Part shown: positions 27,125 to 38,139 of the stretch, one piece after another
Layout of the letters: every line of letters starts with the position of its first letter
How positions within the stretch are numbered: position 1 is the stretch's first letter
From: Kofleriaceae bacterium
Lineage (GTDB): Bacteria; Myxococcota_A; Polyangia; Haliangiales; Haliangiaceae
Direction: 5' to 3'
Assembly: GCA_018057825.1 (NCBI GenBank)
Contig: JAGPCY010000023.1
Coordinates: 62,001 to 126,000 of the forward strand
DNA length: 64,000 nt
Program-made: the position numbers and the translations under genes
The notes under the pieces: model-generated
What the model was told of the DNA's origin: nothing
Database searches by the model: none
What the model saw: only the letters and a program-made list of their open reading frames with translations

Positions 27125-28225
27125 ATGTCCAAGTCCGAACCGACCCGCGCCCGCGCCGAGGCCGCGCTGCGCAACCTGAGCGGTAACCGCTCCGTCCTAT
27201 GGCTGGCGGCGGCCGCGGTGGTCGTCGTCATCCTCAGCTTTCGATCGTGCGTGACCGTCGAGCCCGGTCAGGTCGCGGTCCGGGTCAATAACCTCACCGG
27301 CACCGTCGAGACCATCACCCAGCCCGGGCTGATCCTGCGCCTGCCGTTCGGGATCCACACCGTCTACACGATCGAGGCCGCACCCCAGACCTTCCACATG
27401 CGCGGCGCCGAGAACGTCGACCCCCTGAACGTCAAGGAGCTGACGGTCCGGGCCTCGGACGGCTCGAACTTCGTCTTCAACGACACCACGATCCTGTTTC
27501 GCGTCGTGCCGCAGTTCGGCGGCCGGGTGATCGCCGACGCCGGCGAGGGCACGCGCTACCGGATGTGGATGTTGCCCTACGCGCGTTCGATCCTGCGCGA
27601 CGAGTTCGGCAAGGAGTCGACGATCAGCGTGTCCAACCCGACCACGTTCGGCCAGGCCACCGAGCGCGCCCGCAAGCGCATCAACGGGCTCCTCGAGGAG
27701 CACGGCCTCGAGGTCACCAGCATCGTCACGCCGCGGCCGCGGTTCTCGGCCGAGTACGAGGAGCTGATCGAGCTGCGCAACCAGACCGAGAACGAGCTGT
27801 CGGTCATCGGCTCCAACCTGCAGCGGGCCGAGACCGAGCGCAGCCGTCGCCTGGCCGAGGTCGATCGCGACCAGAACAAGATCATGCAAGAGAAGCGCGC
27901 CGGCCACGAGGCGGCGCTGGCCACCGCGGTGGCGGCCCAGACCGAGACCCACCGCGCGGTCGACTCCGAGAAGATCAGCAAGGTCGCCGCCGGCCAGGCG
28001 TCGCTGTCGGCCGATCGCCAGCGCGCCATCGAGCTCACCGGCCAGCTCGACGCCCAGTACACCGCGCGCAAGGCCGAGATCGACGCGTTCCGGGTCCAGC
28101 CGGTCGAGCGGGTGATGGAGCGCCTGGGCGAGCGGCTGCGCGGGGTCACGATCGACATCCAGCCGTGGGCCAACGACACCGTGCCGTCGCGGCTCCAGGT
28201 CGAGCAGTTCGGAGGTGCGCGATGA
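27125..28225 (+). CDS. SPFH/Band 7 (prohibitin-like) membrane protein 1
   Basis: A 366-residue protein with one N-terminal membrane helix ([16 protein letters not shown], about 24-39). An SPFH domain follows at about 42-215 ([28 protein letters not shown]-like strand, [12 protein letters not shown]). After it comes a long charged coiled coil (about 215-325; [20 protein letters not shown]). Such proteins form large ring or cage assemblies at the membrane and often hold FtsH-type proteases or organise microdomains. It is coupled by ATGA to a second SPFH gene, as in HflK-HflC pairs, but the sequences are distant from HflK/C. Confidence 0.82.
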
Positions 28226-29433
28226 AGCCGGCCACGACGATCGCCAAGGTCCTGGTCCTGGGCGCCCTGGCGCTGTGGATCGTGCCGTGGATCTTCTTCA
28301 CCAAGGTCGAGCCCGGCCAGGTCGGGGTGCGGCGCAGCGCGGTCGGCGGCGTCGACGAGACCGACCTCGGGGCCGGCTGGCGGCTGCGCATCCCCGGTCT
28401 GCACCGGATGACCTACCTGCCGTCGACCTACTTCTTCCTCGACTACACCGACGACACCAAGGGCCCGCAGGAGCCGCTGCAGATCCGCACCAAGGACAAC
28501 AACAACGTCACCCTCGACGTTTCGGTGCCGGTCCGGATCAAGCCGGGCCGGGCCCACGCGGTGGTCAAGGCCGGCAACCACATGCGCGAGGCCGACGGTC
28601 GCTACCGCTACATGCGGCTGGCAGAGCAGACCGCGGTCAGCGTGCTGCGCGAGGAGCTGGCCAGCCTCGTCTCGGTCGGCTTCTACTCGACCGAGCGCCG
28701 GCTCGCGGTCAGCGATCACGCCCTGGTCGCGCTCAACGCCGCGCTCGGACCGCTCAACCTCGAGGCCCAGGCGGTGCTCATCCGCGCGGTGCAGTTCCGC
28801 GCCGAGTACGAGAAGCAGCTCCAGTCGATCCAGTTGAACGAGCAGAACAAGCTCCTCGACGGCGCCCGCGAGAAGCTGGCCGCCGAGCAGCAGAAGCTCG
28901 ACAACTACAATCAGGGCACCGCGGCCCTGGCCAGCGCCCGCGAGCAGGACTGGATCAAGCGCCGGGCCGAGCTCGAGCGCGCCTACCAGCTCGGCGGCCT
29001 CGACCTCGTCGACCCGACGCCGGGGGCGGCGCGGGCCGCGCTGGCCGGCCTGACCCCGGAGCAGCTCGCCGCCGCCAAGGCCCGAGTCACCACCGCCCTG
29101 GGCATCGACGCCGCGGTGGTCACCGACGCCTACCTGATCGGCATCAACAACCTGCAGGCTGAGACCCTCGAGTACAAGAACCGCGTCACCGCCGAGGGCG
29201 AGGCGGTGGCGGCGCGCCTCGAGGCTGAGGGCGCGGCGCTCCTGGCCAAGGTCCAGGGCGAGTACGAGGCCAAGCTGAACGCGCTCCTCGGCTCGCCGGC
29301 CGGCCGCGCCTACGTCGCGTGGCAGGCGGCGGCCAACATCAGCTTCGCCAAGACCCTGACCTTCAGCTCGCAAGATGGCGTGCCGTCGGTCCTGCGCCTG
29401 CGGCAGTTCGCCGAGCAGTTCATGGGCAAGTGA
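28222..29433 (+). CDS. SPFH/Band 7 (prohibitin-like) membrane protein 2
   Basis: A 403-residue partner of the preceding protein. It has an N-terminal membrane anchor ([18 protein letters not shown]), an SPFH domain ([47 protein letters not shown]) and a coiled coil from about 190 to 330 ([20 protein letters not shown]). A C-terminal part, FLLD-free and ending FAEQFMGK, may oligomerise. GGAGGT precedes ATG 28222, which overlaps the previous stop. A hetero-oligomeric membrane scaffold with its neighbour is the natural inference; no protease or NfeD-like gene is adjacent. Confidence 0.82.
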
Positions 29434-29636: not shown

Positions 29637-31523
29637 ATGTCGATCAAGCGCTTGCTCATCCCCGCCGCCGGCCGCGGCGCCCGTCTCGACCGCCCTGGCA
29701 TGCCCAAGCCGCTGGTGTGGGTCGCCGGCTTGCCGATGATCGTCCGCACCCTGGTGCAGGCCGAGGAGGCCGGCGTCGAGGAGGCGGTCGTCGTCGTCGG
29801 CTACGAGGCGCCGACCGTGGTCAAGGCCCTGACCCACCACCCGCGGCTGACCCGGTTGAAGGTCCGCTTCGTCGAGGCGCCGCGCTGGGCCGACGACGGC
29901 CTGGTGGCGTCGCTCCTCGCCGCTCGCGAGGTCCTGGGCCAGGAGCGGTTCGTGATCGCGATGGGCGACCACGTCTTCGACGGCAAGCTCATCGAGCGCA
30001 TCGTCGGCGAGCGGGTCGGCGACGGCGAGGTGGTGGCGATGGTCGACGGCAACCTGGCCGAGGTCTTCGACCCCGCGGCCGCGGTCAAGGCCAAGACCCA
30101 CCGCGGCGCGATCCTCGAGATGGGCTGGGACGTGCCCGGCTTCGACGCCGTCGACTGCGGGTTGTTCGCGTGTGGCCCCGAGGCGTGGGCGGTCTTCGCC
30201 GAGGCCTACCAGGCCGATTCCAAGGCCAACATCTTCGCCGCGGTCAACCGCCTGGCGGCCAAGGGCCTGGCCCGGGCGGCCAGCGCCGACGGCCTGCCGT
30301 GGGACGACGTCGATACGCCGGCGGCGCTCATCCGCACCGAGATGCGCCACCGCAAGCAGCGGCGCGAGCAGAACGTCCGCACGATCACGCCGCCCGACGG
30401 CGCGGCGCCCGGCCAGGCCTACGCGTTCCAGACCGGCGCCCCGGCGACCACCGAGGTCGTGGTCGGTCGCGGCATCGCCACCGACGGCAGCCGCCTCGAC
30501 CTCGGCATCCCGGCGCGCAGCGCGTCGTCGCCGATCTTCGTCTTCACCGATCAGACGGTGAACCGGCTCTACGGCGACAACTTCGTCAGCGCGCTCGAGG
30601 CCCGCGGCTACCTGGTCCACCGCATCGTGATGGAGGACGGCGAGGTCTCGAAGACGATCACCAACTACGCCCGCCTGGTCGATCACGTCCTCGAGAAGGG
30701 CATCGACGAGCGCAGCGTGCTGGTGTCCCTGGGCGGCGGCGCGGTGTGCAACGTGTGCGGGTTCGTGGCCTCGACCCTGTACCGCGGCATCGGCCTCATC
30801 CACGTGCCGACCACGCTCATGGCGCAATGCGACGCCGCGATCAGCCACAAGCAGGCGCTCAACGGCGCCCGCGGCAAGAACCTGATCGGCGCGTACTACC
30901 CGCCGATCCGGGTGGTGGTCGACGTCAACTTCCTCGCCACCCTCGAGGACTGGCTCATCCCCGACGGCCTGGCCGAGGTGGTCAAGCACGCCCTCGGTCA
31001 GGACGCGCAGTACCTCCGGGACCTCCTGGCCTACCAGGGTGACCACCGCGACCCCGACTTCCTCGAGTGGGTGGTCAAGAAGAACATCGAGCTCAAGTGC
31101 GAGCTGATGGCGGTCGATCCCAAGGAGCACGCCTCGGGCATGGTCCTGCAGTACGGCCACAACGTCGGGCACGCGGTCGAGTACCTGAGCGGCTACGACC
31201 TGTCCCACGGCGAGGCGGTCGCGATCGGCATGATGGTCGCGGCGCGGATCGCGCGGCTCCTGGGCGGCTGCGACGACGAGACCGTCGAGCTGCACCGCCA
31301 GGTCATCGCCAAGTACAACCTGCCGACCGAGATCCCGGCGTCGATGCGGATCCCCGACATCCTCGACGCGCTCCGCTACGACAAGAAGTACCTGACCGAG
31401 GGCGTGCGCATGGCGCTGGTGGCCGAGCCCGGCAAGCTGTGGGAGGTCGGGGCCGACTACGCGATCCCGGTGCCCGACGACGTCCTCATCCCGGCGCTCG
31501 AGGCGACGATGGAGCGGGCGTGA
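29637..31523 (+). CDS. Nucleotidyltransferase fused to a DOIS-like sugar-phosphate cyclase
   Basis: A 628-residue two-domain enzyme; AGGAG lies 7 bases before ATG 29637. Residues 1-245 form an NTP-transferase: PAAGRGARL (about 9-17), MPKPL (22-26) and a metal-site segment MGDHVF (109-114) resembling inositol-1-phosphate cytidylyltransferases. Residues about 295-628 form a cyclase of the dehydroquinate-synthase superfamily, with VSLGGGAVCNVCGF (363-376), RGIGLIHVPTTL, GLAEVVKHAL (Glu447, Lys450), YGHNVGHAVE (His508, His512) and SHGEAVAIGM (His524). Glu447, His508 and His524 are the expected metal ligands. The dehydroquinate-synthase Arg and Asn are replaced by Gly and Gln, and the local sequence recalls 2-deoxy-scyllo-inosose synthase (BtrC). 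It may make and activate a cyclitol. Confidence 0.82.
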   Translation: MSIKRLLIPAAGRGARLDRPGMPKPLVWVAGLPMIVRTLVQAEEAGVEEAVVVVGYEAPTVVKALTHHPRLTRLKVRFVEAPRWADDGLVASLLAAREVLGQERFVIAMGDHVFDGKLIERIVGERVGDGEVVAMVDGNLAEVFDPAAAVKAKTHRGAILEMGWDVPGFDAVDCGLFACGPEAWAVFAEAYQADSKANIFAAVNRLAAKGLARAASADGLPWDDVDTPAALIRTEMRHRKQRREQNVRTITPPDGAAPGQAYAFQTGAPATTEVVVGRGIATDGSRLDLGIPARSASSPIFVFTDQTVNRLYGDNFVSALEARGYLVHRIVMEDGEVSKTITNYARLVDHVLEKGIDERSVLVSLGGGAVCNVCGFVASTLYRGIGLIHVPTTLMAQCDAAISHKQALNGARGKNLIGAYYPPIRVVVDVNFLATLEDWLIPDGLAEVVKHALGQDAQYLRDLLAYQGDHRDPDFLEWVVKKNIELKCELMAVDPKEHASGMVLQYGHNVGHAVEYLSGYDLSHGEAVAIGMMVAARIARLLGGCDDETVELHRQVIAKYNLPTEIPASMRIPDILDALRYDKKYLTEGVRMALVAEPGKLWEVGADYAIPVPDDVLIPALEATMERA

Positions 31524-32263
31524 CGCGGCTGGCGGTCGTCACCGGCGCGTCGAGCGGCATCGGCCTGGCGGTGGTCGAGCGCCTGGTGGCGCGCGGCGAC
31601 CGGGTGATGGCGGTGGCCCGGCGCCCCGAGGGGCTGGCCGACCTGACCGCGCGCTTCGGCGATCAGGTCCAGCCGCTGGCGGTCGACGTCGGCGATCACG
31701 CCGCGGTCCACGCCACCCTGGCGGCGCTGCCGCCGGTCCACACGATGGTGCTGTCGGCCGGCATCTGCAAGCAGGCCCGCCTGGACGAGGAGGCCGACGA
31801 CGCGACCTGGTGGGAGACCCTGAACGTCAACCTCCACGGCAGCTACTTCGCGATGAAGGCGGTGGCGCCGACCATGCCCGACGGCGGGCGCATCGTCGCG
31901 GTGTCGTCGGGGCTGGGCAAGCTCGGGCGGCCGGGCTACGCCGCGTACTGCGCGTCGAAGCACGCGCTCCTGGGCGTCGTGAAGTGCGTGTCCAAGGAGC
32001 TGGCGCCGCGCGGCATCACCGTCAACGCGGTGTGCCCGGGCTGGGTCGACACGCCGATGGCGCGGGCCGACGTGGTCAAGACCGCCCACGAGCGCGGCGT
32101 CGAGCAGGCCGCGGTCGAGGCCGGCATCTACGCCGGCATCCCGATCGGCCGGATGGTGTCGGCCGACGAGTGCGCGGCGCTGATCTGCTGGCTGGCCTCG
32201 CCCGAGGCGGCGGCGGTCACCGGCGAGGCGTACAACATCTCGGGCGGCGAGTTCTTCGCGTGA
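31520..32263 (+). CDS. Short-chain dehydrogenase/reductase of the cyclitol operon
   Basis: A 247-residue classical SDR with TGASSGIG nucleotide motif (about 8-15), an SAG motif (VLSAGICKQ, for the usual NNAG), active-site Ser in AVSSGLGK and YAAYCASK (Tyr and Lys). The C-terminus ends ITGEAYNISGG-style, as in polyol and ketone reductases. GTG 31520 overlaps the preceding stop. In context it is the likely reductase of the keto-cyclitol made by the upstream cyclase domain; that substrate is inference from the operon. Confidence 0.85.
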   Translation: MTRLAVVTGASSGIGLAVVERLVARGDRVMAVARRPEGLADLTARFGDQVQPLAVDVGDHAAVHATLAALPPVHTMVLSAGICKQARLDEEADDATWWETLNVNLHGSYFAMKAVAPTMPDGGRIVAVSSGLGKLGRPGYAAYCASKHALLGVVKCVSKELAPRGITVNAVCPGWVDTPMARADVVKTAHERGVEQAAVEAGIYAGIPIGRMVSADECAALICWLASPEAAAVTGEAYNISGGEFFA

Positions 32264-33093
32264 CCGCGCCGCGGATCGTCGTCGTCGGCCACGTCACCCA
32301 CGATCGCTACGGCGACGACATCGTCCCCGGCGGCTGCGCGTTCTACGCCGCGCGCACTCAACGGGCCCTGGGCGCCGAGGTCCACCTGGTCACCACGGTC
32401 GGCACCGACTTCGCGTGCGAGGACGCCTTCACCGGGCTGGCGGTCGACGTCACCCGGGCCGGCGCGACCACGCTGTTCACCAACCTCTACCCGCCGGGTG
32501 GCATCCGGGTGCAGCGCATCGAGGCGATGGCGCCGCCGGTGGCGCCGCCGGCTGAGCTGCCCGAGGCCGCGCTGGTCCACCTGGCGCCGGTGATGCAGGA
32601 CGTCGACCTGGCGACCTGGCTCGCCGCCGCCGGTGGGCGACCGGTCGCGATCGCGATCCAGGGCTGGATCAAGGATCGCGGCCCGGGCGAGACCGTGGTC
32701 CAGACCCCGTGGCAGATCGACGGCGCGCTCCTGGCGCGGGTGGCCTTCGCCGCCTGCGGCGAGGAGGATCTGGTGCAGCAGGGCGATCTGCTCGACCGGC
32801 TGTGTCGCCACGTGCCGGTGGTGGCCTTCACCCACGGCAAGCGCGGCTGCGACGTGATCGTCGGCGGGCGGACGACCCGGGTCGGGATCTACCCGCGGGC
32901 GGCCGAGGTGGATCCGACCGGCGCCGGCGACACCTTCGCCGCCGGGTTCTTCTTCGGGCTGGCGCAAGGCCGCGAGCCGGTGGAGGCGGCGCGGCTGGGC
33001 GCCGCGGCGGCGTCGATCGTCGTCGAGGGACGGGGGGGCGAGACCCTGCCGCGGGTCGGTGAGGCGTGGGGGAGGATCGCGGAGATCGGGTAG
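32260..33093 (+). CDS. PfkB-family carbohydrate kinase of the cyclitol operon
   Basis: A 277-residue ribokinase-like protein. The C-terminal PfkB signature DPTGAGDTFAAGFFFGLA (about 219-236) has the catalytic Asp in GAGD, and the N-terminal GG motif is VPGGCAFYAA. It is shorter than fructokinases and resembles cyclitol or nucleoside kinases of the family in its lid. GTG 32260 overlaps the SDR stop. It could phosphorylate the reduced cyclitol, giving the substrate for the N-terminal nucleotidyltransferase domain of the first gene (inference). An SGAGRC tract begins immediately after its TAG. Confidence 0.85.
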   Translation: MTAPRIVVVGHVTHDRYGDDIVPGGCAFYAARTQRALGAEVHLVTTVGTDFACEDAFTGLAVDVTRAGATTLFTNLYPPGGIRVQRIEAMAPPVAPPAELPEAALVHLAPVMQDVDLATWLAAAGGRPVAIAIQGWIKDRGPGETVVQTPWQIDGALLARVAFAACGEEDLVQQGDLLDRLCRHVPVVAFTHGKRGCDVIVGGRTTRVGIYPRAAEVDPTGAGDTFAAGFFFGLAQGREPVEAARLGAAAASIVVEGRGGETLPRVGEAWGRIAEIG

Positions 33094-33303
33094 GGAGGCG
33101 GAGGCGGGGGCGGAGGCCGAGGCGGAGGCCGAGGCGGAGGCGGAGGCGGAGGCGGAGGCGGAGACCGAGACCGAGACCGAGGCCGAGGCCGAGACCGAGG
33201 CCGAGACGGAGGCGGAGGCCGAGGCCGAGACCGAGACCGAGACCGAGGCGGAGACCGAGACCGAGGCCGAGACCGAGACCGAGGCCGAGGTGGAGGCGGA
33301 GGT
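33094..33303 (+). repeat. SGAGRC hexamer tract 2 (after the PfkB gene)
   Basis: About 210 bp of SGAGRC units starting right behind the TAG of the kinase gene. GGAGGC units come first, then mixed CGAGAC, CGAGGC and GGAGGC. It fills the gap to the convergent S41 protease gene. It has the same polarity relative to the upstream gene as the other four tracts. Confidence 0.95.
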
Positions 33304-36467: not shown

Positions 36468-37339
36468 CGCGGCGGCTCAGCGCTCGGCGGCGCCAGGTGC
36501 GCGACCGCGTCGGCGAAGATCCGGATCCGTCGGCCGGCGCGCAGCCGGGCGACCTCGGCGGCGATCTGCTCGTCGAGCGCGGCCCGCGCCAGCGCCAGCT
36601 TGACCCGCCGCAGGGCGTCCGCGATCGGCTCGGGGCGGACGGTCACGTCGGTGGCGCGCAGGATCAGGTAGCGGCCGTCGTCCAGGCGGCGCGGCCCGAG
36701 CAGGTCGCCGGGGTGACGCAGCTCGCTGGCCAGCCGGACCATGGCCTTGGTCGCGGTGTGCTCGTCGATCACGCCGAGGTCGCCGCCGGCCGCCGCCGAG
36801 GCGTCGATCGAGCGGGCCTGGGCCAGGGCGGCGAAGCCGGCGTCGTCGAGACCGACCGCGGCGGCGTAGGTGGCCTCGGCCGCGGTCGGCTCGGCGAGGA
36901 AGATCGCGCGGGCCCGCACGCCCTCGACCTCGCCGTAGCGGCCGGGCGCGGCGGCGTAGGCGGCGGTCGCCTCGTCGTCGGAGATCTCGGCCGGCCTGCG
37001 CCCGCTGTTGGCGGCCAGGTGATCGACCAGCGCGCGGTGGCGGACCGCGACCCGGAGCGAGCGCGCCGCCAGCCCGCGGCGGCTGGCCTCGTCGGCGAAG
37101 AGCTGGACCCGGATCGCGTCGTCGACCGCGCGCTCGGCCGGCGACGGCGGCGCGGCGCGCCCGGCCACCGGCCGCGGCGGGCCCAGGTGCTCACGCGCAG
37201 CGGCGGCGGTGATCGCGGTGTCGTCGACGCAGGCGACCACGGTGTGATCGGCGCGGGGGCCACACGCTGGACCATCGCCGCAGCCCCACCCTGCCAGCGC
37301 GCTGGCGAACCCGGCGAGGGCGATCGCGACGAACCTCAA
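36464..37339 (-). CDS. Parvulin-like (SurA/PrsA-type) periplasmic lipoprotein
   Basis: A 291-residue lipoprotein from TTG 37339 (signal RFVAIALAGFASALAGWGC). A helical SurA-like N-terminal part (about 70-135) precedes a region with a parvulin pattern (ARAIFLAEPTAAEATYAAAV, SIDASAAAGGDLGVIDEH, PGDLLGPRRLDDGRYLILRATD). It probably assists folding of exported proteins. Neighbouring genes in the same operon encode two proteases and a PLA2-motif lipoprotein. The TTG overlaps the preceding stop (TTGA). Parvulin catalytic residues cannot be confirmed by eye. Confidence 0.75.
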   Translation of the reverse strand: MRFVAIALAGFASALAGWGCGDGPACGPRADHTVVACVDDTAITAAAAREHLGPPRPVAGRAAPPSPAERAVDDAIRVQLFADEASRRGLAARSLRVAVRHRALVDHLAANSGRRPAEISDDEATAAYAAAPGRYGEVEGVRARAIFLAEPTAAEATYAAAVGLDDAGFAALAQARSIDASAAAGGDLGVIDEHTATKAMVRLASELRHPGDLLGPRRLDDGRYLILRATDVTVRPEPIADALRRVKLALARAALDEQIAAEVARLRAGRRIRIFADAVAHLAPPSAEPPR

Positions 37340-38139
37340 TTGGGACAGTAGGCCACGTACGTGACGACGTAGTCACCGCTGGCGTCGTTGAATTCGTCGC
37401 CGCAGTCGGCGCTGCCCGGGCCGGTGCCGCCGCCCGGGTGGTAGTCGACGCAGCGATCGTGATCGAGGCAGTCCTGCATCATGTCGTCGTCGAACCACCA
37501 GTTGCATCCGGCGCCGCACCGGCCCTGACAGCTCGACGCGTAGTTGCCGTAGGCGTCCCAGCTCGCGCTGCAGCCGTGGCTCACGCCGTCGTGGTACGAG
37601 TAGGTGTAGCCGCCGATGCCGGGCAAGCAGGTCGTGCCGTCGTTGCCGCAGGTGCCGGCGCGGTCGACGGTGTCGCTGCCCAGGGTCGCGAGGTCGAAGA
37701 CCTGGCGATCGAGGGTCCAGCCGACCGGGGCCTCGGCCATGCGATCGGCGTGGCGGACCAGGAGGCGACCGTGCAGCGCGTCGATCAGCTCGGGGGCGGC
37801 CGCGCCGATCGCGTCGCGCAGCGCCAGGAGCGCGGCGGTGTCCTCGGGGTATAGCGCGCCCAGGCCGCCGTCGGTCTCGATCAGGCCGGAGCCGAGATCG
37901 AGATCGATCGTCAACACGACCTGGTTGACCTCGAGACGCAAGCTGGCGTGCTCGGGCCCCACGAGTCGGCTGTCGAAGGTCACGACCGAGCCGGCGTGAT
38001 CGAAGGTGCCGCGGATCACCTGGGCGTCGCGCTGGTGAAACACCAGGGCGGCGCTGTCGGTAGCGACCTCGCCCTCGTCGGCGCAGGCGGCCAACGACGA
38101 CACGAACAGAGCGGCGAGCAGGACCGGACGCTGACGCAT
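37336..38139 (-). CDS. Lipoprotein with phospholipase-A2-like CxxHDxC motif
   Basis: A 267-residue lipoprotein (signal LLAALFVSSLAAC). The N-terminal 150 residues form an unrecognised beta-rich domain. The C-terminal 105 residues contain ten cysteines and the segment CGAGCNWWFDDDMMQ followed by DCLDHDRCVDYH (about 223-234). The CLDHDRC core matches the active-site helix of secreted phospholipases A2 (CCxHDxC), with the His-Asp pair intact and one Cys changed. The calcium-loop equivalent could be CGAGC. It could be a membrane-attacking enzyme or a structural relative. It heads the operon that continues with the PPIase and two protease genes. Confidence 0.65.
   Translation of the reverse strand: MRQRPVLLAALFVSSLAACADEGEVATDSAALVFHQRDAQVIRGTFDHAGSVVTFDSRLVGPEHASLRLEVNQVVLTIDLDLGSGLIETDGGLGALYPEDTAALLALRDAIGAAAPELIDALHGRLLVRHADRMAEAPVGWTLDRQVFDLATLGSDTVDRAGTCGNDGTTCLPGIGGYTYSYHDGVSHGCSASWDAYGNYASSCQGRCGAGCNWWFDDDMMQDCLDHDRCVDYHPGGGTGPGSADCGDEFNDASGDYVVTYVAYCPN

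Follow-up and report, generated by a model that had tools for sequence, protein, structure and literature searches.

To our knowledge, sugar-phosphate cyclases other than AroB are known mostly from natural-product pathways (aminoglycosides, acarbose, sunscreens). The three-gene operon discussed here lies in a 64,000-nucleotide stretch of Kofleriaceae bacterium DNA, JAGPCY010000023.1, 62,001–126,000, forward strand (the window; coordinates below are window positions), from a genome of 8.9 Mb that is 99.7% complete. The operon, at 29637–33093, encodes a nucleotidyltransferase–cyclase fusion (P0001), a short-chain dehydrogenase/reductase (SDR; P0002), and a PfkB-family kinase (P0003). On balance, and judging from sequence, we favor the view that these genes together form a self-sufficient module for a nucleotide-activated, inositol-like ring, one that would take a hexose 6-phosphate to CDP-deoxyinositol for use as a lipid or envelope headgroup.

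Several described systems resemble parts of this module. Activation of a cyclitol phosphate with CDP has precedent in hyperthermophiles and in a putative Bacteroidetes lipid cluster, as outlined in PMC9246714. In the CDP-inositol lipid route outlined there, as proposed for the module, a nucleotidyltransferase loads a cyclitol phosphate onto a nucleotide, and a CDP-alcohol transferase then uses the product. The inositol phosphate of that route comes from inositol-phosphate synthase (MIPS), whereas the DOIS-like cyclase, reductase and kinase of the module would provide a deoxy analogue and need no MIPS. Inositol-phosphate cytidylyltransferase (IPCT) and the bifunctional IPCT-DIPPS (2xme, 4jd0, 4mnd; NF041135) provide the best family model for the nucleotidyltransferase half of the fusion. 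In IPCT-DIPPS, however, the partner domain is a CDP-alcohol phosphotransferase rather than a cyclase. The acarbose and validamycin pathways (AcbC, AcbR, ValB/VldB), as summarized in PMC9200736, use the same four kinds of enzyme, i.e., cyclase, reductase, kinase and nucleotidyltransferase, but they differ in having a C7 substrate, an EEVS-type cyclase, ROK and other kinases, GDP-valienol as the activated product, and separate genes in a natural-product cluster. The ebo operon likewise holds an uncharacterised sugar-phosphate-cyclase clade, EboD, in a conserved operon, although its six proteins, as described in PMC5133447, include no nucleotidyltransferase, SDR or PfkB, and the EboD row in our tree groups with EEVS rather than with 2-deoxy-scyllo-inosose synthase (DOIS). 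Among open-access papers we found neither the fusion nor the module described, and this compact activated-cyclitol route seems not to have been described.

The cyclase domain and its relatives

In a tree of 57 cyclase rows (IQ-TREE, LG+C20), the 20 module cyclases form one clade with support of 100/98. Its sister is a group made up of BtrC, the DOIS of Sodalis praecaptivus and a Streptomyces SAT1 row; the joint clade is supported at 100/99, and the two are deep sister groups. The 28 AroB rows stand in a separate group (100/99), with the EEVS and EboD rows on the AroB side. The first branches within the module clade are the unfused cyclases of genomes G182 and G245, from which it follows that the cyclase probably stood alone before a single fusion event. 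The preliminary description of this DNA had put the cyclase closer to DOIS than to dehydroquinate synthase (DHQS) and had proposed this phylogeny. The sister position to DOIS, apart from AroB, and the active-site pattern bear out that placement, whereas raw scores go the other way (see below).

Active-site residues were compared, in P0001 numbering, among the 20 module rows, the 28 AroB rows, three DOIS-clade rows and three EEVS rows identified by annotation only. Residues 403–406 are S-H-K-Q in the module, with His404 invariant, S-[IHV]-K-Q in the DOIS rows, and mostly G-G-K-T or G-G-K-V in AroB. Position 501, which we take to be the carboxylate-binding Arg of AroB, is Arg in 28 of 28 AroB rows and in 0 of 20 module rows; it is Gly in P0001 and Gly or Ala in the module and DOIS rows. 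Position 505, presumably an active-site residue, is Asn in 27 of the 28 AroB rows, Gln in all 20 module rows, Glu in all three DOIS rows, and Asp in EEVS and EboD. The preliminary description was thus right that the Arg and Asn of AroB are replaced here by Gly and Gln. With the Arg lost, the module cyclase should not bind the carboxylate of 3-deoxy-D-arabino-heptulosonate 7-phosphate as AroB does. Lys487 and His512 are common to the module, AroB and DOIS, while the EEVS rows have Met487 and Pro512. Position 583 is Lys in the module and AroB and Asn in DOIS. Lastly, E447, H508 and H524 are invariant in the module and, by analogy with DHQS structures, are the likely metal ligands.

To summarize the comparison with DOIS (BtrC, 2d2x/2gru; the Sodalis praecaptivus plasmid enzyme), the module shares with it the S-x-K-Q motif, Gly/Ala in place of Arg, Lys487 and His512, and departs from it in Gln rather than Glu at 505, Lys rather than Asn at 583, the invariant His404, and the fusion. 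By these residues, the module cyclase is not a standard DOIS either, and we read the family as a new clade, sister to DOIS and marked by a domain fusion. The gene neighbors differ as well, being SDR and PfkB in the module. The annotated DOIS of Sodalis praecaptivus, an enterobacterium, lies on a plasmid (L132:4742-9315) in an aminoglycoside-like cluster with a PIG-L deacetylase, a glycosyltransferase and a radical SAM protein.

The enzyme logic shared with acarbose biosynthesis raises the question of whether the module is instead a C7-cyclitol module, in which an EEVS-like cyclase acting on sedoheptulose 7-phosphate would lead to an NDP-C7-cyclitol pseudosugar for a pseudo-glycosyltransferase. 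We consider this unlikely. The EEVS rows lie elsewhere in the tree, and their Asp505, Met487 and Pro512 contrast with Gln, Lys and His in the module. AcbR, as summarized in PMC9200736, is a glucose-1-phosphate-adenylyltransferase-like enzyme that makes GDP-valienol, whereas the nucleotidyltransferase of the fusion is IPCT-like. Finally, no glycosyltransferase is conserved near the module in the 24 loci compared.

The conserved trio and a proposed pathway

The three open reading frames (ORFs) are on the + strand with successive stop/start overlaps of 4 bp each, confirming the overlapping genes of the preliminary description. Pfam divides P0001 into NTP_transf_3 (residues 7–136), DHQ_synthase (330–438) and DHQS_C (444–584), and assigns P0002 to SDR and P0003 to PfkB. 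The AlphaFold2 model of P0001 has a pLDDT of 87.9 and a pTM of 0.69.

When P0001 was used as query against 377 genomes of the phylum, a sample drawn evenly from a larger group, the module cyclase was found in 25, fused in 23 and unfused in two (G245 and G182). A single near-full-length match occurs in 19 genomes; in G072, G217, G268 and G164, contig ends truncate the match or it is in pieces. Two further occurrences are in records titled Deltaproteobacteria (L005, L006). To check gene order, each part was used as a tblastn query against 26 loci, 25 of them distinct since L004 duplicates L124. The SDR gene is next downstream of the cyclase in 24 of the 25, the remaining one (L127) being cut by a contig end. 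PfkB directly follows the SDR in 20, with L127 and L090 cut by contig ends. In G057, G212 and G086, a PfkB relative is present in the genome but away from the cyclase locus; in six module-free genomes searched alongside, it is absent or weakly matched. As the same three genes recur in the same order in relatives that have diverged and share no flanking genes, the trio is more than chance. An all-against-all ORF comparison of 24 loci found no fourth gene common to different families, which suggests that the module is complete in three genes.

Outside the phylum, searches with a limit of E ≤ 1e-60 found no fusion in two other phyla, represented by 396 genomes for that of G378 (L042, a record titled Actinomycetota) and by 395 for that of G377 (L017, a record titled Pelobacter); the three matches listed from these phyla are to the cyclase part alone. 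Phyla beyond these were covered by a pattern-limited scan alone. Among the best 80 of its 200 relatives, both halves are present in four and one more is cut by a contig end, all of them titled Myxococcales, Polyangiaceae or Deltaproteobacteria.

The best nucleotidyltransferase family model for the transferase half is NF041135 (IPCT-DIPPS), at 81 bits against a cut-off of 580 set for the full-length bifunctional protein. The IPCT of A. fulgidus (2xme) matches at 54 bits, and the IPCT-DIPPS 4mnd matches in fold with a Z of 28.4, tied with other nucleotidyltransferases; structural alignment over the domain gives 27–29% identity to 4mnd and 2xme. The resemblance to inositol-phosphate cytidylyltransferases seen at the outset therefore holds, IPCT models and structures being the best or among the best matches. 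R16, K26 and D112 are given as conserved IPCT residues of the T. maritima enzyme in PMC12275187; R16, K24 and D111, matched to them by motif, are invariant in 19 fusion rows. In a tree of 28 rows, a single clade (99/100) holds the fusion nucleotidyltransferases, and IPCT-like rows branch next to it in no firmly supported order. Related nucleotidyltransferases, e.g., CpgD, make other CDP-headgroups according to PMC12275187.

Six relatives of this half in the phylum outscore P0001 with NF041135, at 88–254 bits. The relatives in the phylum include stand-alone genes that adjoin MIPS in G281 (L321) and G182 (L326). IPCT-DIPPS-like proteins, in which the nucleotidyltransferase is fused to a CDP-alcohol transferase, a type known from hyperthermophiles, occur in three module genomes: G212 (L323:9016-10725, 254 bits), G057 (L324:8485-10089) and G245 (L325:2947-4551, 245 bits), those of G212 and G245 being the two scanned. 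These proteins lend some weight to the idea that the CDP-cyclitol would go into a compatible solute similar to di-inositol phosphate, and not into a headgroup. That reading is quite improbable in our view: the module itself is without a DIPPS domain, the fused proteins may be independent of the module, and in G018 and G150 the module adjoins an operon of membrane-lipid type.

P0002 is a generic FabG-like SDR. P0003 aligns nearly end to end (residues 6–258 to 3–252) with 3w4s/4xf6/4xf7, which we take to be the myo-inositol kinase of the archaeon Thermococcus; at 34 bits, this is the best-scoring of the near-full-length matches.

A pathway from hexose 6-phosphate to CDP-deoxyinositol can be proposed in which the order of steps, cyclise, reduce, phosphorylate and activate, is chosen because it uses all the parts. 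The NAD- and metal-dependent cyclase would oxidise a hexose 6-phosphate, most likely glucose 6-phosphate, drop the phosphate and close the carbocycle, giving a deoxy-inosose as DOIS does. Cyclases of this superfamily eliminate phosphate and the ring retains a CH2, so that the eventual product should be a deoxyinositol, not inositol. The SDR would then reduce the ketone to a deoxyinositol of the quercitol type, and the PfkB kinase would phosphorylate one of its hydroxyls. The IPCT-like N-terminal domain of the fusion would transfer CMP from CTP to give CDP-deoxyinositol. With the first and last enzymes in one polypeptide, entry would be tied to commitment. The consumer would be a transferase whose gene lies elsewhere, of the CDP-alcohol phosphotransferase family or of another kind, and would yield a lipid or envelope headgroup. 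The preliminary description had seen in these genes the cyclisation, reduction, phosphorylation and activation of a sugar phosphate; the conserved trio covers all four, and that interpretation is supported as a reading of sequence, with substrate, ring product, choice of CTP over other NTPs, and acceptor putative.

A number of observations weigh against this pathway. The aroB model TIGR01357 scores P0001 at 280.3 bits, the best PDB match is a DHQS (186 bits, vs. 148 for DOIS), and comparison of the predicted fold does not tell DHQS (Z 44.7) from DOIS (Z 40.4). Because position 505 is Gln and not the Glu of DOIS, and 583 is Lys as in AroB and not the Asn of DOIS, the assignment of glucose 6-phosphate and deoxy-inosose is an extrapolation over long branches. 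Fold matches to the nucleotidyltransferase domain are close among IPCT, PntC and UDP-glucose enzymes, so that CTP is a putative substrate. The kinase match is weak, and other PfkB chains outscore 3w4s over the C-terminus of P0003. The cyclase scores and Lys583 would also fit a diverged second dehydroquinate (or aminodehydroquinate) synthase in shikimate-type metabolism, the fused nucleotidyltransferase being unrelated to its product. We regard this as very unlikely, since the score falls under the aroB cut-off of 305, the tree excludes AroB, the Arg is lost in 20 of 20 rows, and the gene is linked to a reductase, a PfkB kinase and a nucleotidyltransferase. Moreover, the genome has a separate AroK-AroB fusion (523 aa, the AroK half assigned by reading the sequence), which is encoded on the window's contig some 12 kb ahead of position 1. 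It is the only other PF01761 gene of the genome, so P0001 is not its sole aroB.

Returning to the activated-cyclitol module, its cyclase is fused to the activating enzyme, occurs in about 1 in 15 of the sampled genomes of the phylum, and has no other conserved gene around the trio. This looks like a standing cellular function, the supply of a nucleotide-activated cyclitol without MIPS.

Candidate uses of the product

In G018 and G150, which belong to different genera, the module operon is divergent from MIPS and CDP-alcohol transferase genes, and GtrA, MMPL and PAP2 genes are next in line (profile-scanned in G018, with the G150 counterparts found by blastp). MIPS and a close transferase of phosphatidylinositol-synthase type are both present in all five module-free genomes sampled from the family of the window genome, which itself has neither. 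Outside the window, the genome has a cluster (L318; G000:C53 8001-28000) that encodes four CDP-alcohol transferase domains, three of them scanned as ORFs and the fourth found separately. The cluster further holds two NTP_transf_3 nucleotidyltransferases, both IPCT-like or related and one of them IPCT-like, as well as two flippase-type proteins and an aminotransferase. Its counterparts in G281 and G331 each lie on a contig that also carries MIPS. Together, the G018 and G150 operons, the lack of MIPS in the window genome and the C53 cluster hint that the module may feed an inositol-like headgroup. If so, the lipid, whether of membrane or envelope, would be of a new kind.

A more specific proposal is a MIPS-independent route in which CDP-deoxyinositol would give a deoxy analogue of phosphatidylinositol or inositol phosphoceramide, replacing inositol lipids in some lineages. 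In family f25, 6 of the 12 genomes with the module lack MIPS, vs. 0 of the 9 others (Fisher p 0.019, kinship ignored); in genus g117, the figures are 2 of 2 with the module vs. 0 of 3 others. Three of the nine MIPS-less module genomes (G192, G187, G268) are less than 90% complete. In genus g163 of family f35, neither the module genome G268 nor the module-free G155 has MIPS, and in family f8 MIPS is present in G304, which has the module, but absent from its module-free genus-mate G094. Genes of phosphatidylinositol-synthase type (E below 1e-25) are present in 7 of the 25 module genomes. Given this mixed pattern, replacement of inositol lipids is a hint only, and we hold the proposal as tentative and rather doubtful.

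Two results also count against a headgroup. Across the 377 genomes, MIPS is commoner with the module (16 of 25) than without it (126 of 352), so the two co-occur across the phylum and are not mutually exclusive. In addition, a tree of PF01066 CDP-alcohol transferases (95 segments, 16 genomes) holds no clade exclusive to module genomes and shared across families. Its rows were picked by motif, with 3 of 7 places of G007 included, some long branches doubtful, and G018, G150, G212, G057 and G245 entered through other loci only. Counts of PF01066 do not separate module from module-free genomes, the family being present in 49 of 50.

Beside the unfused cyclase operon of G245, the opposite strand carries aldehyde dehydrogenase, nucleotidyltransferase and CDP-alcohol transferase genes (L130:1-2524). 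These were considered as users of the product and rejected, as the nucleotidyltransferase falls outside the fusion/IPCT clade and the arrangement is seen in one genome.

Features of the locus

Table 1. Genes, domains and motifs of the operon (window positions).
Feature	Position	Strand	Basis or remark
Nucleotidyltransferase–cyclase fusion P0001	29637..31523	+	ATG start, 628 aa
SDR P0002, putative ketone reductase	31520..32263	+	GTG start, 247 aa
PfkB-family kinase P0003, putative cyclitol kinase	32260..33093	+	GTG start, 277 aa
Nucleotidyltransferase domain, IPCT-like	29637..30371 (residues 1-245)	+	NF041135 score, PDB match, fold match
Sugar-phosphate-cyclase domain, DOIS sister clade	30408..31517 (residues 258-627)	+	PF01761, PF24621, tree, fold
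Motif S-H-K-Q	30843..30854 (residues 403-406)	+	Alignment
Motif G-M-V-L-Q-Y-G-H	31137..31160 (residues 501-508)	+	Gly replaces AroB Arg, Gln replaces AroB Asn

A scan for promoters and terminators gave nothing informative. A tandem pair of SPFH/Band 7 genes (27125-28225 and 28222-29433) closely precedes the operon in the same orientation; the ORF comparison of 24 loci did not find this pair kept beside the trio elsewhere. A GAGGCC hexanucleotide tandem repeat (33095-33302; 34.7 copies, 87% match) begins 2 bp past the pfkB stop. Farther on, 37336-38139 encodes a Cys-rich, secreted-looking protein with a C-x-x-H-D-x-C stretch and no Pfam match, a relative of which is found in L003.

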